Positions 314 to 18,203 of a DNA stretch of 32,951 nucleotides are shown in pieces. The position numbers were made by a program, and so were the translations under genes. The notes beneath the pieces were generated by a model. That model searched no databases and was not told the origin of the DNA. It saw only the letters and a list, made by a program, of their open reading frames with translations. How positions within the stretch are numbered: position 1 is the stretch's first letter; each line of letters opens with the position of its first letter. This stretch comes from Clostridiales bacterium (GTDB lineage: Bacteria; Bacillota; Clostridia; Mahellales; Mahellaceae), in NCBI GenBank assembly GCA_030156435.1, contig JASGMM010000019.1:1-32951 (forward strand), written 5' to 3'.

Positions 314-1388
314 TATAAAAAAAGCGTATTCCTTTTACAAAGAGGAATTCGATGCGGCCAAACTGTACTTTTATTTGGCTAAAAGAGAAAGTGACAGCGC
401 AAACAAGAGCAAATTTCTCGAACTTCATGATATCGAAGCAGGGCATGTTAAATTTTGGTATTTATTTTTGAAAAATCGAGGGTATGAGCCAAAAGGTAGT
501 ACCGGCAATATAAAATTAACGCTTTCTAAATTTTTGAGGAAGCTGCTTGGCGCCGGGCTTTATACGTCGATCCTTGAAATGGGAGAATCCACTAGCATAG
601 AGGCTTACACCGAATTCCTTTCATCGGGGGACTTAACTGCTGAAGAAAAAGAAGGGTTAAAGAAGATAATCGAGGATGAATTGGACCATGAGAGCTTTTT
701 TGAGAACCAAAAGAGCGTGATGCCGGTGAACAACGTTAGGGATTTCATATTGGGTATGAACGACGGCTTGGTGGAGCTTTTAGGAGCGGTGACGGGGCTC
801 TCGGCAGTATATCCGTCCAACCCTTTGTTCGTTGGTATAAACGGACTTGTAGTAGGATTGGCAGGGGCAATGTCGATGGCCATCGGGTCATTTATATCAG
901 TAAGGTCACAAAGGCAGGTAAACGAAGGGACACGGAGGAAAATGGAATTGCTTTTTGGGGTATCTAAGGATAGGGCCAAACAGGAGCTGCTTGATAAACT
1001 TACCGAATCCGGTATGCCCGAGGATGTAGGGAAAGAGGTTGCCGATAGAATAGGCGAGAACCAAGAGTCTATGATAGGGCTTTTGATAGATGAGAACGAC
1101 GAAAATGAGATACGTTCGGCGGCTTTTACCGGGCTTGCTTATGTAGCAGGAGTAGCCTTTCCCGTACTGCCGTATTTCCTGCTGCCATCCTCAATATCAG
1201 CGCTCATACTATCGGCTGTTTTAGCAGGTATAGCACTCGCCGCAGTAGCCACGATAGTATCGATTTCTGCTGGCAATGCAAATATAAAAGGGAAAATAAT
1301 AGAGATGGTGGTATCAGGCTTAGGTGCCGCAGGAGTTTCTTATATCTTTGGTTTAATAGTACAGGGCTATTTCGGTGTAAGCGTATAA
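303..1388 (+). CDS. Ferritin-like domain / VIT1-CCC1 family membrane protein (putative iron or manganese transporter)
   Basis: This is a two-part protein of 361 residues. Residues 1 to about 135 form a ferritin-like (rubrerythrin/erythrin-type) helical domain with repeated carboxylate and histidine positions (FYKEEFDAAKLY, HDIEAGHVKFW, EDELDHESFFENQ). From about 140 onward it is a VIT1/CCC1 (DUF125) membrane domain, opening with FILGMNDGLVELLGAVTGL and giving about five hydrophobic segments. VIT/CCC1 proteins move Fe2+ or Mn2+ out of the cytosol; the attached ferritin-like domain is known in bacterial members such as MbfA and may bind or sense the metal. I chose GTG 303 over ATG 297 because the GGGGG at 290-294 lies 8 bases before the GTG but only 2 before the ATG. 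It appears monocistronic. Substrate metal and direction are inferred from family. Confidence 0.8.
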   Translation: MADSIKKAYSFYKEEFDAAKLYFYLAKRESDSANKSKFLELHDIEAGHVKFWYLFLKNRGYEPKGSTGNIKLTLSKFLRKLLGAGLYTSILEMGESTSIEAYTEFLSSGDLTAEEKEGLKKIIEDELDHESFFENQKSVMPVNNVRDFILGMNDGLVELLGAVTGLSAVYPSNPLFVGINGLVVGLAGAMSMAIGSFISVRSQRQVNEGTRRKMELLFGVSKDRAKQELLDKLTESGMPEDVGKEVADRIGENQESMIGLLIDENDENEIRSAAFTGLAYVAGVAFPVLPYFLLPSSISALILSAVLAGIALAAVATIVSISAGNANIKGKIIEMVVSGLGAAGVSYIFGLIVQGYFGVSV

Positions 1389-1542: not shown

Positions 1543-3654
1543 CCCGTTTTCGACAGTTGCAAGAGAATATGACATATGGAATCCGCTATTTTTAGCGGAT
1601 TCTAAGACTTTTTTAGCTCTATAAAAATGTTGTATGGGAACTCTATTTGGTAATTTTTTTGATTATTTTATTCAAGTCCTTCGGAGCATGGTTTTTGTTA
1701 TCCAGACGCATGCCGTATATGCTGTTTAAAGCAGTACACACCTCGCTTTTTGTGTATGTTGCCATATAGTACATACCATTCATATCTGCAACATTCATGT
1801 TCTGCAGCGTTGTCAGAATATTTTCGGTAGTATAATGCTTGCCGTATTGATCCAGCTTGTTCTCTAATAACCGGTAAATCAATAAAGCAGTATAGCAAAT
1901 CATAAAGTGTGCTATTATCCTACTCTGATTCCTGTGATAAATCGGTCTGGCACGGAAGTTGGTTTTTAATACCCGAAAACAATCTTCAATCTTGCAGCGC
2001 CTTGAATTGATTTCTAATATTGATTTTGCGCTATCTTCAAGATTTGTTGCTACGGCATAGTACCCGTCATATTTTTCTTCCCTTTCGATAGCGGCCTGGT
2101 CGAGCTTGTAATAATCAGAAGCCTTTTCACCATTCTTTCCCACTGATATCCTAGTTATGAAACGGGTTACATCATGCGGCCCTTTTTTCACATCCTCCAC
2201 AGCCTTATGCTCGATGATGTCTTTAGCTCTTTCAATCTGTGCATTCCTTATGCTCCGCTGATATTCCATCATTTTTCTGGAAAAGGTAACAATGATGCGC
2301 TGCTTAAGAACCGCTTTAGATTTTACCTTTTTTGTGTTTCCGTTTTTGAATACTCTTTCCTCATACAGGCCAACATCTACCGCACTGTCCACATCTATTA
2401 CCTTGTAAGCTACATCGTTGTACAAAGACAAGTTATCTTTATTGAATCGGTCGAATTCCTTCATATGGCGGATTGTAACAAGGGAATCATCTGAGAGCCT
2501 GCGATACCCAAAATCATTGAATACAGCCTGCTGCAGTGTCTCTGACAGTTTCTTGACGGATTGTGTTACAATGAAAGCCCTTCCACCAAAAGAATTGTAT
2601 TCCCTGATGTTAAGAGAACCAAGCCCAGCATCCGCACAATAGATAAACGGTTTTCCCTTAAACATCTTAGTGATTTTTCTCTCAAGCGGTATAGCGGATT
2701 TTTGCTCATTATCAGAACCAGGATTAATGCACATTGAGATGGGAATCCCGTTACCATCCATGAAAAGCCCCATCTGCACAAGAGGGCTGGGCTGATGCTG
2801 CTTTGAAGGTCCATACTTGCGAAATCCTTTCAGTATCTCACCCGTTACCTCATCTACAAAATCGTCGTCTTCTTGCTCGGTTTCAAAATAATAGTTTGTA
2901 CAATCAAAATAACATACAGAGGTGTTCCTGGGCATGATATTTTCACTGTTTAAATAAAGATGCTCCAGATAACTATCATAATTATCTTCCAATATGTCCA
3001 TAAAGCGTAATATATGCTGATACTCAAAAGATGGCTGCTCAAAATATGTATCCAGCTTATCGAATGTTCCCCATTTAGACTTAGGATCTAATATCCTGGC
3101 AAAGGTCAGAAACCTATTTATATCATTGCAGCTAAACGTGGCCTTGCTATCCATCTGAACATCTTTAAAGAAATCCGGTATCTTTAGGTCCTGATAGATT
3201 TTCTGCAGAACAAAATAACCGATATTCAAGAGGGTTGACTTGGAGGCAACATAATTGGTAGCTGATAACTTCTCATCAAAATCGATCTTTATATTTAATT
3301 CAGCTTTGTTGCTTTTGTAAGCCTCATTATACTTGCGTACCTCTTGCTTGGCATAAGCAAGAGGATCAGGGGAAATTGCTAATAGCTCAGAATGCTTGCC
3401 AATTCTTTTGACATTCCTGGTTGATGTCTTCTTGCCATTGCGGAATCCCATCTGGATAAAATATGTAGGGTCCTTGGATTTTCTATCATAGTATAATTTC
3501 ATGCGTATGCCATCCTCTCTATATATTCTATTATATCACGGATATATAAAACATACAACACCATACAACAAAAAATTCAAAAAATTTTGACAAGAAAACA
3601 TGATAAATTCAGCTTTTGTAAGGATTTTATTCATCTACAACTGTCGAACTCCCG
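1543..3654 (-). mobile_element. IS1634-family (IS4-group) insertion sequence, apparently complete
   Basis: The element is 2112 bp if bounded by the 71-bp repeats. Its ends align as inverted repeats: TTCGACAGTTG at 1549-1559 and its complement at 3638-3648, each six bases in from the proposed termini, both of which begin with C on their own strand. It holds one intact transposase on the minus strand. IS1634, the founding member of the family, is known for unusually long and variable target duplications, which fits a 71-bp repeat here. An alternative boundary, with a 6-bp duplication CTCCCG (1541-1546 and 3649-3654), is possible if the target already held a tandem 75-bp repeat. Confidence 0.85.
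1643..3502 (-). CDS. DDE transposase, IS1634 type
   Basis: Full-length transposase of 619 residues that would catalyse cut-and-paste or copy movement of the surrounding element. Candidate catalytic residues sit in the expected contexts: D200 in VCYFDCTNYYFE, D291 in FIYCADAGLGS, and E506 in RRCKIEDCFRVLK, the last with the Y-(2)-R-(3)-E-(6)-K-like spacing of the IS4 superfamily. The N-terminus (KLYYDRKSKDPTYFIQMGF) and the ILEINSRRCKIEDCFRVLKT block are typical of IS1634/IS1549 relatives. The frame is unbroken, so the copy could be active. A purine-rich site (AGAGAGGATGG on the coding strand) lies upstream of the ATG. Its ends lie about 100 and 150 bases from the IS termini. No accessory gene is present. 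Confidence 0.9.
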   Translation of the reverse strand: MKLYYDRKSKDPTYFIQMGFRNGKKTSTRNVKRIGKHSELLAISPDPLAYAKQEVRKYNEAYKSNKAELNIKIDFDEKLSATNYVASKSTLLNIGYFVLQKIYQDLKIPDFFKDVQMDSKATFSCNDINRFLTFARILDPKSKWGTFDKLDTYFEQPSFEYQHILRFMDILEDNYDSYLEHLYLNSENIMPRNTSVCYFDCTNYYFETEQEDDDFVDEVTGEILKGFRKYGPSKQHQPSPLVQMGLFMDGNGIPISMCINPGSDNEQKSAIPLERKITKMFKGKPFIYCADAGLGSLNIREYNSFGGRAFIVTQSVKKLSETLQQAVFNDFGYRRLSDDSLVTIRHMKEFDRFNKDNLSLYNDVAYKVIDVDSAVDVGLYEERVFKNGNTKKVKSKAVLKQRIIVTFSRKMMEYQRSIRNAQIERAKDIIEHKAVEDVKKGPHDVTRFITRISVGKNGEKASDYYKLDQAAIEREEKYDGYYAVATNLEDSAKSILEINSRRCKIEDCFRVLKTNFRARPIYHRNQSRIIAHFMICYTALLIYRLLENKLDQYGKHYTTENILTTLQNMNVADMNGMYYMATYTKSEVCTALNSIYGMRLDNKNHAPKDLNKIIKKITK

Positions 3655-13648: not shown

Positions 13649-14467
13649 ATGCTAGCTGTAGAAAGGCGAAAGAAAATCATGGATCTTCTCTATGAGAACC
13701 AAAGCGTTGCTGTGCCTGATCTGAGCCGCTTGTTCAATATAACCGAAGAAACTGTGCGCAGAGACTTGGCCAAATTGGAGAAAGAGGGTTTGCTGCGACG
13801 TACGTATGGTGGTGCGGTATTGAGCGAGGGTCTGCATTTGGAATTACCTATATCAATAAGAGAAGTAACCAATAAAGAAGGCAAGGAGCTCATGGGGCGG
13901 ACGGCTGCTGGCCTTGTCGAAGATGGGGATACTATAATTATGGATTCCAGTACCACCGTGTTGCAGATGGCCAGATTTTTAAAAGATAAAAAGCGCCTGA
14001 CAGTTATAACGAACGGCCTAAAAATAGCATCTGAATTAGCTCCTTATGAAAATATATCCGTTATTTCCACAGGCGGCATGTTGCGCAGCAGCTCATTATC
14101 TTTCGTAGGTCACTCAGCTGAGAGGGCTATATCCAATTATAATGCCGATATATTCTTCATGTCATGCAAAGGCGTAAGCCTAGATAAATTCGTAACCGAG
14201 TCCAATGAATTTGAAGCAGAACTGAAGAAAATTATGATAAAAGCGGCGCAGCGCATCGTATTATTGGCCGACCATACCAAATTGGATAAAGTATCATTTG
14301 CTACGATATGCTCTATAAAGAACATAGACGTATTTATAACAGATGAAAAATTACCTAAGGAATGGGAAACTTTCATGAAGGATAATGACATAGAATTGTT
14401 GTATGCACTGAAAAATGAGGAAACAAGCGATTATAATCAAAATAAAACGGACTTAAATGTTGATTAA
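13649..14467 (+). CDS. DeoR/GlpR-family transcriptional regulator
   Basis: Predicted repressor of a sugar or sugar-phosphate operon, with a phosphorylated sugar as the usual ligand. The product is 272 residues. An N-terminal winged helix-turn-helix spans about residues 5-57 (VAVPDLSRLFNITEETVRRDL, then LLRRTYGGAV, both family hallmarks). The rest is the DeoR sensor domain with a phosphosugar-type loop MDSSTTVLQMA, VITNGLKIA, and LLADHTKLDKVSF near the end. An ORF reading upstream to 13526 would run through the pyr terminator and promoter; ATG 13649 with GAAGGAAGGA before it is the correct start. It precedes the aldolase by 57 bases, which probably is its target. The ligand is unknown. Confidence 0.9.
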   Translation: MLAVERRKKIMDLLYENQSVAVPDLSRLFNITEETVRRDLAKLEKEGLLRRTYGGAVLSEGLHLELPISIREVTNKEGKELMGRTAAGLVEDGDTIIMDSSTTVLQMARFLKDKKRLTVITNGLKIASELAPYENISVISTGGMLRSSSLSFVGHSAERAISNYNADIFFMSCKGVSLDKFVTESNEFEAELKKIMIKAAQRIVLLADHTKLDKVSFATICSIKNIDVFITDEKLPKEWETFMKDNDIELLYALKNEETSDYNQNKTDLNVD

Positions 14468-14524: not shown

Positions 14525-15334
14525 ATGTATTCTGATTTTAAGATAAAAGAAGAGATATGCGAGATAGGACGTCGCATATACAATAGGGGTTTTGTAGCAG
14601 CCAATGATGGCAATATAACTGTAAGGGTAGATGACGACGAAATTTGGACTACCCCTACCGGTGTCAGCAAAGGCTTTCTGACACCGGATATGTTGATCAA
14701 GGTCAACATGAACGGCGAAGTTATAAACGGTAGCTGGAAACCGTCGTCCGGACTCAAAATGCATTTGAGAGTATACAAAGACAGGCCTGACGTCAGAGCT
14801 GTAGTACATGCTCATCCACCATATGCAACAGCTTTTGCCATAGCCGGTATACCTCTGACACGTTGTGTTATGCCCGAGGCTGTTATTTCGCTGGGTACGG
14901 TACCTATAGCCGAATATGGCACACCTTCAACCGAAGAAATTCCAAATGCCATAGCCAAATATCTGCCGAATTACGATGCCTTGTTGCTGGAAAATCACGG
15001 TGCTCTGACCTACGGTTATGATCTGATGAACGCCTACTTCAAGATGGAAACGCTCGATTTTTACGCTCAATTGTTGTATCTGGCTAATAATCTTGGAGGT
15101 GCAAAGGACATATCGCCCGATAATGTGGAGAAATTGATGCGCGTAAGGGAGAAGATGGGTATAAAGGGACGCCATCCGGGTTGTGAAGGGTGCCAATATG
15201 CCGATGGTACGTGCAAAATAGAAGAAAATCAATCGGATAGTCAAACCGGATCAAAACAATCAACTGTAAAAAATGACGATATAGCCGATATAGTGGCTGA
15301 AGTAACTAGGAAAGTTATGGAACAGTTAAGATAA
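14525..15334 (+). CDS. Class II aldolase (fuculose-/rhamnulose-phosphate aldolase-like) with a C-terminal targeting-like helix
   Basis: Zinc-dependent aldolase/adducin-fold enzyme, expected to cleave a phosphorylated deoxysugar such as fuculose-1-phosphate into lactaldehyde and DHAP. Of 269 residues, 1 to about 210 form the catalytic domain: GNITVRV, TPTGVSKG, SSGLKMHL, the zinc ligands in VVHAHPPYAT (H95, H97) and the third in ENHGALTYG (H158). The family usually ends near 215. Here a three-cysteine segment (C220, C223, C230) and a polar linker rich in S, Q and K are followed by a predicted amphipathic helix, DDIADIVAEVTRKVMEQLR (251-269). That layout resembles encapsulation peptides on microcompartment cargo enzymes, including the aldolases of fucose/rhamnose loci. 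No shell gene lies in the window. Substrate is inferred from family only. Confidence 0.85.
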   Translation: MYSDFKIKEEICEIGRRIYNRGFVAANDGNITVRVDDDEIWTTPTGVSKGFLTPDMLIKVNMNGEVINGSWKPSSGLKMHLRVYKDRPDVRAVVHAHPPYATAFAIAGIPLTRCVMPEAVISLGTVPIAEYGTPSTEEIPNAIAKYLPNYDALLLENHGALTYGYDLMNAYFKMETLDFYAQLLYLANNLGGAKDISPDNVEKLMRVREKMGIKGRHPGCEGCQYADGTCKIEENQSDSQTGSKQSTVKNDDIADIVAEVTRKVMEQLR

Positions 15335-15428: not shown

Positions 15429-16244
15429 TTACTCTTTATATTGCATGAACCGCGTTTCAAGATAGCTTACAGCCTGATACATTATAGCGGCTACGATGGC
15501 CAATATTATTACGCTGCTCATAACGAGGTCCAATTCGAATACCTGGCTGCCGTATATTATCAAATATCCAAGCCCTTCTTTGGACACCAGAAATTCGCCC
15601 ATTATCACACCTACCCAGGAAAGCCCCACATTTATTTTAAGAGCTGATATAACGGTAGGAACGCTGGCCGGCAATATGACCTTAGTCAGTATCTGGGCTT
15701 TAGAAGCGCCAAAGGTCTGCAAAAGCTTTATCTTGTTTTTATCTACTTCTAAAAAACCGTTCAGCACCATTATAATGGTCACTATGAGCGATATTAGAAG
15801 AGCCATCGCTATAATGGCCGGTTTGCCGTTGCCAAGCCATACTATGAGTATGGGGCCTAACGCCGGTTTAGGCAAGCTGTTTAATACCACCAAATATGGG
15901 TCCAAGATCTTACATGCGTAGTCCGACCACCATAGGCCTATGGCTATCAGAGTGCCGAAAGCTGTGCCTACGATGAAGCCGACCACAGTTTCCGCAACAG
16001 TAGCCCATATATGATTATATAATTGGCCATTATTATGCAGATTGATTATGGTTGTAAGTATTTTAGACGGTTGGCTAGTTATAAAAGGGTCGATTATACC
16101 TAAATCGGCGGCTGCTTCCCATCCGACAATAATGCCAATCAATATCAATACCCTTCCTAGAATAATATTCTGGCGTCGCTTTTTCATCTGTTTTAAGTAA
16201 CTTTGCCTTTCAGGTGAAACGAAGATATCACGGTTAACCGACAT
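15429..16244 (-). CDS. ABC transporter permease, NitT/TauT (SsuC/ThiX) type
   Basis: Membrane-spanning subunit of a high-affinity importer for small organic ions or nutrients. The 271-residue product has about six hydrophobic segments and the binding-protein-dependent permease block near LLQTFGASKAQILTKVILPASVPTVISALKI (about residues 175-205), which contacts the ATPase. The open frame extends to 16352, but AAGGAG ten bases before ATG 16244 fixes the start, and the longer frame would overlap the ATPase by over 100 bases. It overlaps the ATPase stop by 11 bases, so the two are coupled. It is the last gene of this minus-strand operon. The substrate cannot be read from the sequence. Confidence 0.88.
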   Translation of the reverse strand: MSVNRDIFVSPERQSYLKQMKKRRQNIILGRVLILIGIIVGWEAAADLGIIDPFITSQPSKILTTIINLHNNGQLYNHIWATVAETVVGFIVGTAFGTLIAIGLWWSDYACKILDPYLVVLNSLPKPALGPILIVWLGNGKPAIIAMALLISLIVTIIMVLNGFLEVDKNKIKLLQTFGASKAQILTKVILPASVPTVISALKINVGLSWVGVIMGEFLVSKEGLGYLIIYGSQVFELDLVMSSVIILAIVAAIMYQAVSYLETRFMQYKE

Positions 16245-17007
16245 GTATGTCCAGCTCCTTCCATATGCTGTTGAAATATTCCCTGAATTCGGGGCATTTT
16301 CTGGCATTGAGCGGTGTTTTATCTTGACAGCTAAGCCGTATATCGTATACATTCTTAACGATGGCAGGACGTTGGCTCAGCACATATATCCTGTCTGACA
16401 TGGATATAGCCTCCGATATGTCATGGGTCACCAAGACAGCTGTTTTTCCTTCCTGTTTTATAATAGCGGCTACTTCTTCAGATACGGCCAGCCTGGTTTG
16501 GTAGTCGAGTGCTGAAAAAGGCTCATCTAGCAGCAGTATCTCCGGGTTCAAGGCCAGCGTCCGGATCAAAGCCGCGCGTTGGCGCATACCGCCGGACAAT
16601 TGGTGTGGATAATGATATCTGAATTCATACAAGCCATAATTTTTTAATAGCTGCTCCACATGTGATTTTGTACTTTCATTGACTTTATTTTGTATTTCCA
16701 GGCCGAGCAGTACGTTTTGCCATATGTTCCTCCATTCAAACAAGTAATCCTCCTGCAACATATATCCCATTTTATTGGATGGACCGTCAACCGCCTGGCC
16801 GTCCACAATCACGGTTCCACGAGTGGGTTTTATAAGGCCGGCTATAATAGATAGCAACGTGGATTTGCCGCAGCCACTCGGCCCTACAATGCCTACAAAA
16901 TCCTTTTCATATATATCCATAGATATATCTTTTATCGCTTCGGTCTCTCCTTCTGCAGTTTGATATGTCAATCCTATTTTATCCACATGCACTATAATTT
17001 GTGACAC
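16234..17007 (-). CDS. ABC transporter ATP-binding protein, NitT/TauT (SsuB/TauB) type
   Basis: Cytosolic ATPase that powers the permease encoded just downstream. Counting from GTG 17007 the product is 257 residues with Walker A GPSGCGKST at about 42-50, signature LSGGMRQRAALIRTLAL near 137, Walker B EILLLDEPFSALD, and the switch histidine in AVLVTHDISEA. A TTG at 17025 would add six residues, but its first bases are themselves the GGAGGAGG ribosome site, which lies eight bases before the GTG; GTG is therefore preferred. The MGYMLQEDYLFEWRNIWQNVLLG block is typical of nitrate/sulfonate/taurine-type ATPases. Confidence 0.9.
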   Translation of the reverse strand: MSQIIVHVDKIGLTYQTAEGETEAIKDISMDIYEKDFVGIVGPSGCGKSTLLSIIAGLIKPTRGTVIVDGQAVDGPSNKMGYMLQEDYLFEWRNIWQNVLLGLEIQNKVNESTKSHVEQLLKNYGLYEFRYHYPHQLSGGMRQRAALIRTLALNPEILLLDEPFSALDYQTRLAVSEEVAAIIKQEGKTAVLVTHDISEAISMSDRIYVLSQRPAIVKNVYDIRLSCQDKTPLNARKCPEFREYFNSIWKELDIHVG

Positions 17008-17078
17008 TTGTTCTGCCTCCTCCAAAGTTGATCATTTTTATTATATTCCGGGGGTAAGGTAAAGGTGCCGTTTCATGC

Positions 17079-17110
17079 AAAATGCCCAATCTTTTATGAC
17101 TGGGCATTTT
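17079..17110 (-). terminator. Hairpin between substrate-binding protein and ATPase genes
   Basis: AAAATGCCCA (17079-17088) and TGGGCATTTT (17101-17110) form a perfect 10-bp stem. On the minus strand the tail is only four U, so it looks like a leaky terminator or RNA-stabilising hairpin that would raise binding-protein expression above that of the ATPase and permease. Confidence 0.6.
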
Positions 17111-17121
17111 GGTAGTGCGGC

Positions 17122-18123
17122 TTAAGGCTTTATATTCTCTATGGCTTTTTGAGCGAATTCCACTGTTACTAGTTCATCGTAAGGCGCTGTTTTATCAAGT
17201 TCGCCGGCTTCTTTGATGATATCCTGCATATGCATGAAAGCCTCTTCCTTCATTATCGGGTCTTTGGCCCAGGTATCCTGGTCTTTATAGCGTTGTACCA
17301 CTGTTGTCAATACATCCATGTCGGTATCCGGGAAAAATGATTTTATAGCCTCGGCTATTTCCTTTGAGTCGTGCTGTTCCATCCATAGTTGGGCCTTATA
17401 TATCGCATTGGTAAATTTTTGTATAACATCCGGATGTTTTTCTATATAGCTTTTGGTAGCCGAGAATGCTGTATAAGGCACCTCACCGCCAGCTTTTCCG
17501 ATCGACGCGACGACATACCCGTGGTTTTCCTTCTCGACCATAGTGGCCGTAGGTTCAAACAATGCCGCATAGTCGCCCGTACCACTGCTGAATGCCCCTG
17601 CCACAGCATCCAATTGTATATTGGTTATAACGTTGACGTCTTTGCCTGGCATCAGGCCATGCTGCTTTAATACGTATTCTAATACCATTTCCGGCATTCC
17701 ACCAGGGCGAGCCCCTATAACGGTCTTATCTTTAAGGCTTTCCCACTTAAAATCGGCTTCTGGTTTGCGTCCTACCAGAAATGAACCGTCGCGTTTGGTT
17801 AATTGAGCGAAATTCACCGCATAATCGGATTTCCCTTGATTATACACATATACGGTGGTTTCGGGACCGGCCAATGCTATTTGCGATGTGCCGGACAATA
17901 TAGCAGTCATGGCCTTGTCGGATCCTTGAGCGGTGGTTATCTCCACTTTAAGCCCTTCTTCCTCAAAGAAGCCTTCATTGACCGCGATGTATTGACCGGC
18001 ATAGAAGATGGAATGTATCGGTTCGGATACATTTAGCTCTATCAGCCCGTTTTTATCGCCACAGCCTGTCAATACGACCAACATTAGAATCATAAGTAAA
18101 AATACAACTGCGAATTTTTGCAT
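17122..18123 (-). CDS. ABC transporter substrate-binding lipoprotein, NMT1/THI5-like (SsuA/TauA type)
   Basis: Extracellular, membrane-tethered binding protein of the importer. From ATG 18123 it has 333 residues: a lysine-poor but clear signal peptide with hydrophobic core VVFLLMILMLVVL, lipobox LTGC and lipidated C21. The mature part begins with EPIHSIFYAGQYIAVNEGFFEEEGL, the usual opening of nitrate/sulfonate/thiamine-precursor binding proteins, and contains LSGTSQIALAGPET and VIGARPGGMPEMV. The frame could start at 18195, but the strong GGAAGGAGG site is 13 bases before 18123 and the signal peptide follows directly. It is the first gene of the minus-strand operon. Ligand unknown; pyrimidine, sulfonate or amide-type compounds are all possible. 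Confidence 0.88.
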   Translation of the reverse strand: MQKFAVVFLLMILMLVVLTGCGDKNGLIELNVSEPIHSIFYAGQYIAVNEGFFEEEGLKVEITTAQGSDKAMTAILSGTSQIALAGPETTVYVYNQGKSDYAVNFAQLTKRDGSFLVGRKPEADFKWESLKDKTVIGARPGGMPEMVLEYVLKQHGLMPGKDVNVITNIQLDAVAGAFSSGTGDYAALFEPTATMVEKENHGYVVASIGKAGGEVPYTAFSATKSYIEKHPDVIQKFTNAIYKAQLWMEQHDSKEIAEAIKSFFPDTDMDVLTTVVQRYKDQDTWAKDPIMKEEAFMHMQDIIKEAGELDKTAPYDELVTVEFAQKAIENIKP

Positions 18124-18203
18124 ATTGTTATATTCGCCTCCTTCCGATAATCCATAGTGACCGTTCGGGAATTTCCAACTATTTGTTTCCTTCATTTGCA
18201 GGA

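Follow-up and report, generated by a model that had tools for sequence, protein, structure and literature searches.

A tailed class II aldolase encoded away from the bacterial microcompartment locus of Mahella, a putative split-off cargo enzyme

Features of the aldolase locus

The window, the whole stretch of 32,951 nt analysed here, corresponds to contig C62 in the 2.19-Mb draft assembly of a Mahella (G000). It carries a class II aldolase gene which, as the initial annotation had reported, is preceded directly by a gene for a DeoR-family regulator; the two are on the same strand (Table 1). The aldolase matches PF00596 over residues 9-184 (E 1.6e-52), and none of the NCBIfam equivalog cut-offs is reached. 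A relative whose copy of the aldolase is 97% identical is labelled Mahella sp. Convergent with the aldolase, an ABC transporter set comprised of a permease, an ATPase and an NMT1/SsuA-like binding protein, followed by an amidohydrolase, occupies positions 15429-18195 on the negative strand.

Table 1. Positions of the aldolase, its tail and related features (positions without a locus prefix are those of the window)
Feature	Position	Strand	Basis or remark
DeoR/GlpR-family regulator (AgaR/SrlR-like), directly upstream of the aldolase	13649-14467	+	Profile matches
PF00596 class II FucA-type aldolase, 269 aa, with encapsulation-peptide-like C-terminal tail	14525-15334	+	ORF and profile match
Codon 76, GGA (Gly), at the position of E. 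coli FucA Glu73	14750-14752	+	Alignment
Three-cysteine segment: Cys220 (15182-15184), Cys223 (15191-15193), Cys230 (15212-15214)	15182-15214	+	Sequence; BMC-locus homologues often have linker cysteines too
Polar linker, variable, predicted disordered	15194-15274	+	pLDDT < 50; holds most near-C-terminal substitutions among Mahella species
Terminal amphipathic helix, residues 251-269, putative encapsulation peptide	15275-15331	+	Hydrophobic moment, PSSM, AlphaFold2, homology
PF01116 class II aldolase in the G000 shell locus	L008:5153-6217	-	Internal encapsulation-peptide-like helix segment QEAIVQRVVQRVLLQLKEG
PduP2 remnant with internal deletions; AckA2 missing	L008 (G000 C42) ~3240-3460 and 1189-1326	-	Comparison with M. 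australiensis
LarA and LctD/EtfAB-like lactate dehydrogenase flanking the Mahella BMC locus	L051:5563-6861 and L051:17554 to L052:811

The C-terminal tail and its association with shell genes

The three cysteines, polar linker and terminal helix described earlier for this protein are all present in the ORF, the first cysteine codon beginning three bases before 15185, where the segment had been taken to start. Residues 251-269 read DDIADIVAEVTRKVMEQLR. AlphaFold2 predicts that residues 251-268 form a helix (pLDDT 73-80), preceded by a linker, 224-250, at pLDDT < 50. The tail thereby displays both the amphipathic end helix of about 15-20 residues and the flexible, poorly conserved linker of a bacterial microcompartment (BMC) encapsulation peptide, the linker being of predicted disorder and differing in length and sequence among homologues. 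At residues 249-269 the three Mahella species show silent codon changes but no amino-acid difference, in contrast to the linker, which varies among them. Of 100,000 shuffled tails, 201 equal or exceed the hydrophobic moment of the native one. A 15-residue PSSM, trained solely on the N-terminal tails of PduP-type BMC aldehyde dehydrogenases, which are proteins unrelated to the aldolase, scores the tail at 10.9 bits. This is the highest value, above all 9,450 scored segments of the 27 other proteins in the window, with the best internal segment close at 10.6 and the second-best protein end at 1.8. Chance amphipathicity is ruled out by the shuffles taken together with the PSSM comparison.

Aldolases inside BMC loci are 46-61% identical to that of the window, and relatives in this range have in common the tail pattern L-V-x-E-I-T-x-x-V-x-x-x-L; a near-identical tail occurs on BMC-locus aldolases of Clostridia, Latescibacterota and Gemmatimonadota. 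Tailed relatives are mostly found <10 kb from BMC-H, BMC-T, BMC-P, PduP and PduL genes, and shell genes lie within about 10 kb of the aldolase in 53 of the 64 tailed copies compared. When aldolase tails were set against PF00936 across 391 genomes of the class, shell genes were present in 60 of 66 genomes with a tailed enzyme and in 1 of 12 with an untailed one (Fisher p 1.8e-8, uncorrected for relatedness). The 60 are made up of 57 genomes and three Mahella, one of which (G002) retains just a shell fragment; the underlying table leaves out 13 remote homologues (below ~46% identity) and two copies truncated where their contigs end (L090, L157). Outside the class, where tested, tailed enzymes (L019, L022, L028, L030) come from shell-bearing genomes and untailed ones (L025, L027) from shell-less genomes. 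In a phylogeny of the catalytic domain, the Mahella aldolase is surrounded by tailed relatives, and the tail seems to have disappeared on several occasions. By homology, the tail is thus a putative encapsulation peptide; the suspected likeness to known compartment tails was borne out on comparison, both with BMC-locus aldolases and by the PduP-trained PSSM. It is carried by an enzyme of a BMC-bearing genome, in line with a class-wide association that has six tailed exceptions.

The shell locus lies elsewhere in the genome

In a genome-wide PF00936 search, no shell gene was found on the window's contig, in keeping with the earlier remark that the window codes for no shell protein. Six clear BMC domains together with a BMC-P gene were located on contig C42, and one weak match on C47, so that the genome is not a shell-less one. 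The C42 locus also codes for PduP, AckA, a PF01116 aldolase, PduL, RnfC/PduS and EtfBA. A closed 3.14-Mb genome (G001), probably that of M. australiensis judging from the BMC locus reported for the species in PMC4207490, contains a complete BMC locus at about 861-876 kb in the order LarA, PduP1, AckA1, two BMC-H, PF01116 aldolase, BMC-H, PduL, BMC-P, BMC-H, PduP2, RnfC, BMC-T, AckA2, EtfB, EtfA and a FAD-linked dehydrogenase. The tailed aldolase of the same genome lies at 1,493,977-1,494,783, about 620 kb away, with the gene surroundings that it has in the window. The PF01116 aldolase of the BMC locus is unrelated to the tailed PF00596 enzyme.

The initial annotation had left the choice between an orphan cargo enzyme, a split locus and a different use of the tail. 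Its observation stands, and the split locus is the reading supported, because the BMC locus is on another contig, some 620 kb from the aldolase in the sister genome, and the tail is of BMC type; another use of the tail is a minor option. Separation of this kind is seen in two more genomes. In G147 about 1 Mb separates the aldolase from the best shell match, which is on the same contig, and in G082 a second tailed copy is on a different contig from the shell genes.

A DeoR homologue directly precedes the tailed aldolase in six BMC loci (L013, L014, L016, L023, L024 and L096). The closest non-Mahella DeoR among the loci compared belongs to a tail-less operon of rhamnulokinase, DeoR, aldolase and FucI (L145). 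Since DeoR precedes the aldolase both in this operon and in the BMC loci, the Mahella DeoR-aldolase pair has the appearance of a fragment detached from a cluster of this kind.

Comparison with known compartments

The aldolase had been linked to fucose/rhamnose compartments. This holds for the enzyme, which is of the same PF00596 subfamily as the GRM5 aldolase (Cphy_1177 type, C. phytofermentans and Roseburia) and has the same kind of C-terminal tail as clostridial BMC-locus relatives; a DeoR-family regulator, a PduS-like protein and a proposed lactaldehyde product are likewise shared with GRM5 (PMC3557285, PMC6325248). It does not hold for the host locus. The Mahella aldolase is outside the shell locus, about 620 kb away in M. 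australiensis, and the genes of that locus suggest an oxidative pathway leading to lactate and pyruvate. By gene content, the ORFs of the M. australiensis locus include no glycyl-radical diol dehydratase, activase or lactaldehyde reductase. RhaA is absent from Mahella and no true FucI was found, these being the sole canonical sources of the proposed substrates. For these reasons, and judged by its genes, the host compartment is not of the classic fucose/rhamnose type GRM5.

PVM and PVM-like, ACI and SPU-like compartments also have a PF00596 aldolase as signature enzyme. The ACI aldolase is stated to bear a C-terminal encapsulation peptide (PMC8217296), and for PVM oxidation of lactaldehyde to lactyl-CoA and lactate has been proposed (PMC6620236). 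Unlike in Mahella, the aldolase of these compartments is in the main locus, and the ACI satellite holds an aldehyde dehydrogenase instead. BMC satellite loci resemble the Mahella arrangement in that part of a compartment is coded away from the main locus. Such satellites by definition contain shell genes, whereas in Mahella a lone cargo enzyme is displaced and PF00936 is absent from the window's contig.

The tailed aldolase probably serves the shell locus that Axen et al. 2014 (PMC4207490) list for M. australiensis as being of MIC type and including a class II aldolase. In agreement with that listing, BMC-H, BMC-T, BMC-P, PduP and a class II aldolase occur in one locus in both G000 (C42) and G001. 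The class II aldolase found there now is the PF01116 enzyme; the passages of that article consulted here discuss neither the distant PF00596 aldolase nor the LarA/LctD/Etf module. The tailed aldolase is a candidate for supplying the aldehyde to a compartment whose function is listed as unknown. A counter-point is that the PF01116 aldolase, with its encapsulation-peptide-like segment, could be the real signature enzyme of the BMC locus.

Proposed function

The best explanation, at a probability of roughly 0.75, is that the tail is an encapsulation peptide and the aldolase a lumen enzyme of Mahella's single BMC locus, now or in an ancestor. Compartment cargo is usually found by looking beside shell genes; in Mahella it is the tail by itself that points to a likely cargo enzyme, hundreds of kilobases away from such genes. 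Targeting to the shell and the pathway itself, with its substrate, products and flux, may be inferred as follows. The aldolase would split a 6-deoxy-ketose 1-phosphate into DHAP and L-lactaldehyde, which PduP-type dehydrogenases, themselves with similar N-terminal tails, would convert to lactoyl-CoA. Lactate and ATP may then be formed, through lactoyl phosphate, by PduL and AckA, a homologue of acetate kinase; LarA may interconvert L-lactate to D-lactate, and a LctD/EtfAB-type dehydrogenase may oxidise lactate to pyruvate. The racemase of the locus matches LarA at 414 bits, and the closest solved structure to the FAD dehydrogenase (G002 copy) is LctD of the Ldh-EtfAB complex (7qh2 chain C, 372 bits). 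A lactaldehyde-supplying aldolase has been proposed for GRM5 and PVM (PMC3557285, PMC6325248, PMC6620236). In a text search of the literature no lactate-racemase module was found proposed for such a compartment, though one paper contains both terms.

As to the sugar, rhamnose as a certain substrate is ruled out because RhaA is absent. Fucose is unsupported, since the PF02952 proteins that were examined either score far under the FucI cut-off or give no match to FucI.

Damage and possible decay among Mahella genomes

Residue 76 of the window's aldolase is Gly, and it is Glu in 104 of 104 other aligned rows, including both closest Mahella relatives. It corresponds to FucA Glu73 by a constant offset of +3, and with the same offset Ser71/72 and the three zinc-binding histidines fall into register. 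In E. coli FucA, Glu73 is essential (PMC11841055). The window's enzyme thus has His95, His97 and His158 of a FucA-type aldolase with the catalytic Glu replaced, and the sister genomes keep the Glu. Lesions are also evident in the BMC locus of the same genome. Besides the PduP2 remnant and the missing AckA2, the PF01116 aldolase is missing VGT from the GTVHG motif, and VG stands there in place of GG. With Gly for the catalytic Glu and a damaged BMC locus, the aldolase step is probably defective, and the enzyme of the window's strain probably dead.

In the sister Mahella G002 (L054:6100-8850), PduP1 is frameshifted and AckA1/RnfC and BMC-T/EtfB joins remove nearly all shell genes; no PF03319 is left there, and the aldolase tail is unchanged though the shell genes are almost gone. 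The weak PF00936 matches of G002 were rejected as shell genes, being to a protein of 106-112 aa that is not of the BMC locus. This protein is coded on the negative strand at L056:3105-3425 and L055:4548-4886, in L056 beside a Mrp-type ATPase.

Loss of the catalytic residue suggests that the compartment is decaying, and the independent lesions along a single pathway are consistent with relaxed selection, with draft-assembly error also possible. That the compartment and aldolase are non-functional relics in the window's Mahella, the tail being a leftover, is accordingly a serious contender, at somewhat less than even odds, and one compatible with the encapsulation reading as applied to the ancestor and to M. 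australiensis, whose locus looks intact. It draws on the Gly for catalytic Glu, on the remnant PduP2, absent AckA2 and damaged PF01116 motif, and on the near-complete loss of shell genes from G002. Against it, the ORFs for the six BMC domains, BMC-P, PduL, AckA1 and RnfC are intact in the window's genome, and errors may occur in draft assemblies. Moreover, the aldolase differs from that of M. australiensis by 19 synonymous vs 5 amino-acid changes, and this excess of silent changes points to selection on the enzyme until recently. The three Mahella genomes look like successive stages of loss (intact, catalytically damaged and shell-less), by which the order of loss becomes testable.

Tails in genomes without shells

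Tailed aldolases without PF00936 or PF03319 genes were found in five genomes (G135, G200, G241, G365 and G386), three of them nearly closed (1-2 contigs). The first four belong to one genus (g26). A sixth genome, G072, has a tailed aldolase, no PF00936 and a partial BMC-P match near the aldolase. Neighbouring genes in such genomes include MtnK and MtnA: G135 has a MtnK-MtnA-aldolase operon, a tailed aldolase lies beside MtnK and MtnA at L148:6817-9990 in a genome without PF00936, and another is beside a MtnA-like gene in G072 (L156:9451-11375).

Because these shell-less genomes keep tailed aldolases, the tail might act as a shell-independent helix that clusters the enzyme, oligomerises it or binds a partner enzyme, its shell link being ancestral or incidental. 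The hydrophobic tail positions are kept in the four g26 species and the G002 tail is unchanged in a nearly shell-less Mahella, as a function of its own would predict. Such a role is nonetheless unlikely. Tail presence strongly tracks shell genes, close homologues in shell-less genomes have repeatedly lost the tail (L025, L027, L145, L146, L141), the tail resembles those of unrelated BMC enzymes, and the Mahella case is explained by relics. The shell-less tailed genomes permit a direct test of shell-independent tail action.

Relative to previously described compartments, the novelty of the encapsulated-cargo reading is one of arrangement within a known kind of system, a cargo enzyme split from its shell locus and probably dead in this strain. 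Also new are the loss of the catalytic Glu and of two BMC-locus enzymes, the nearly shell-less sister genome, and the retention of the tail in five other shell-less genomes.

A cytosolic role, in a DHAP shunt that handles 5-deoxyribose or methylthioribose, would be favoured by the MtnK, MtnA and MtnA-like neighbours of some tailed homologues (L148, L156). Such a role in place of one in a compartment is very improbable and is rejected as a duty in Mahella, because MtnA there adjoins a different, tail-less PF00596 aldolase (G000 C78) and the tailed copy stands alone with DeoR.
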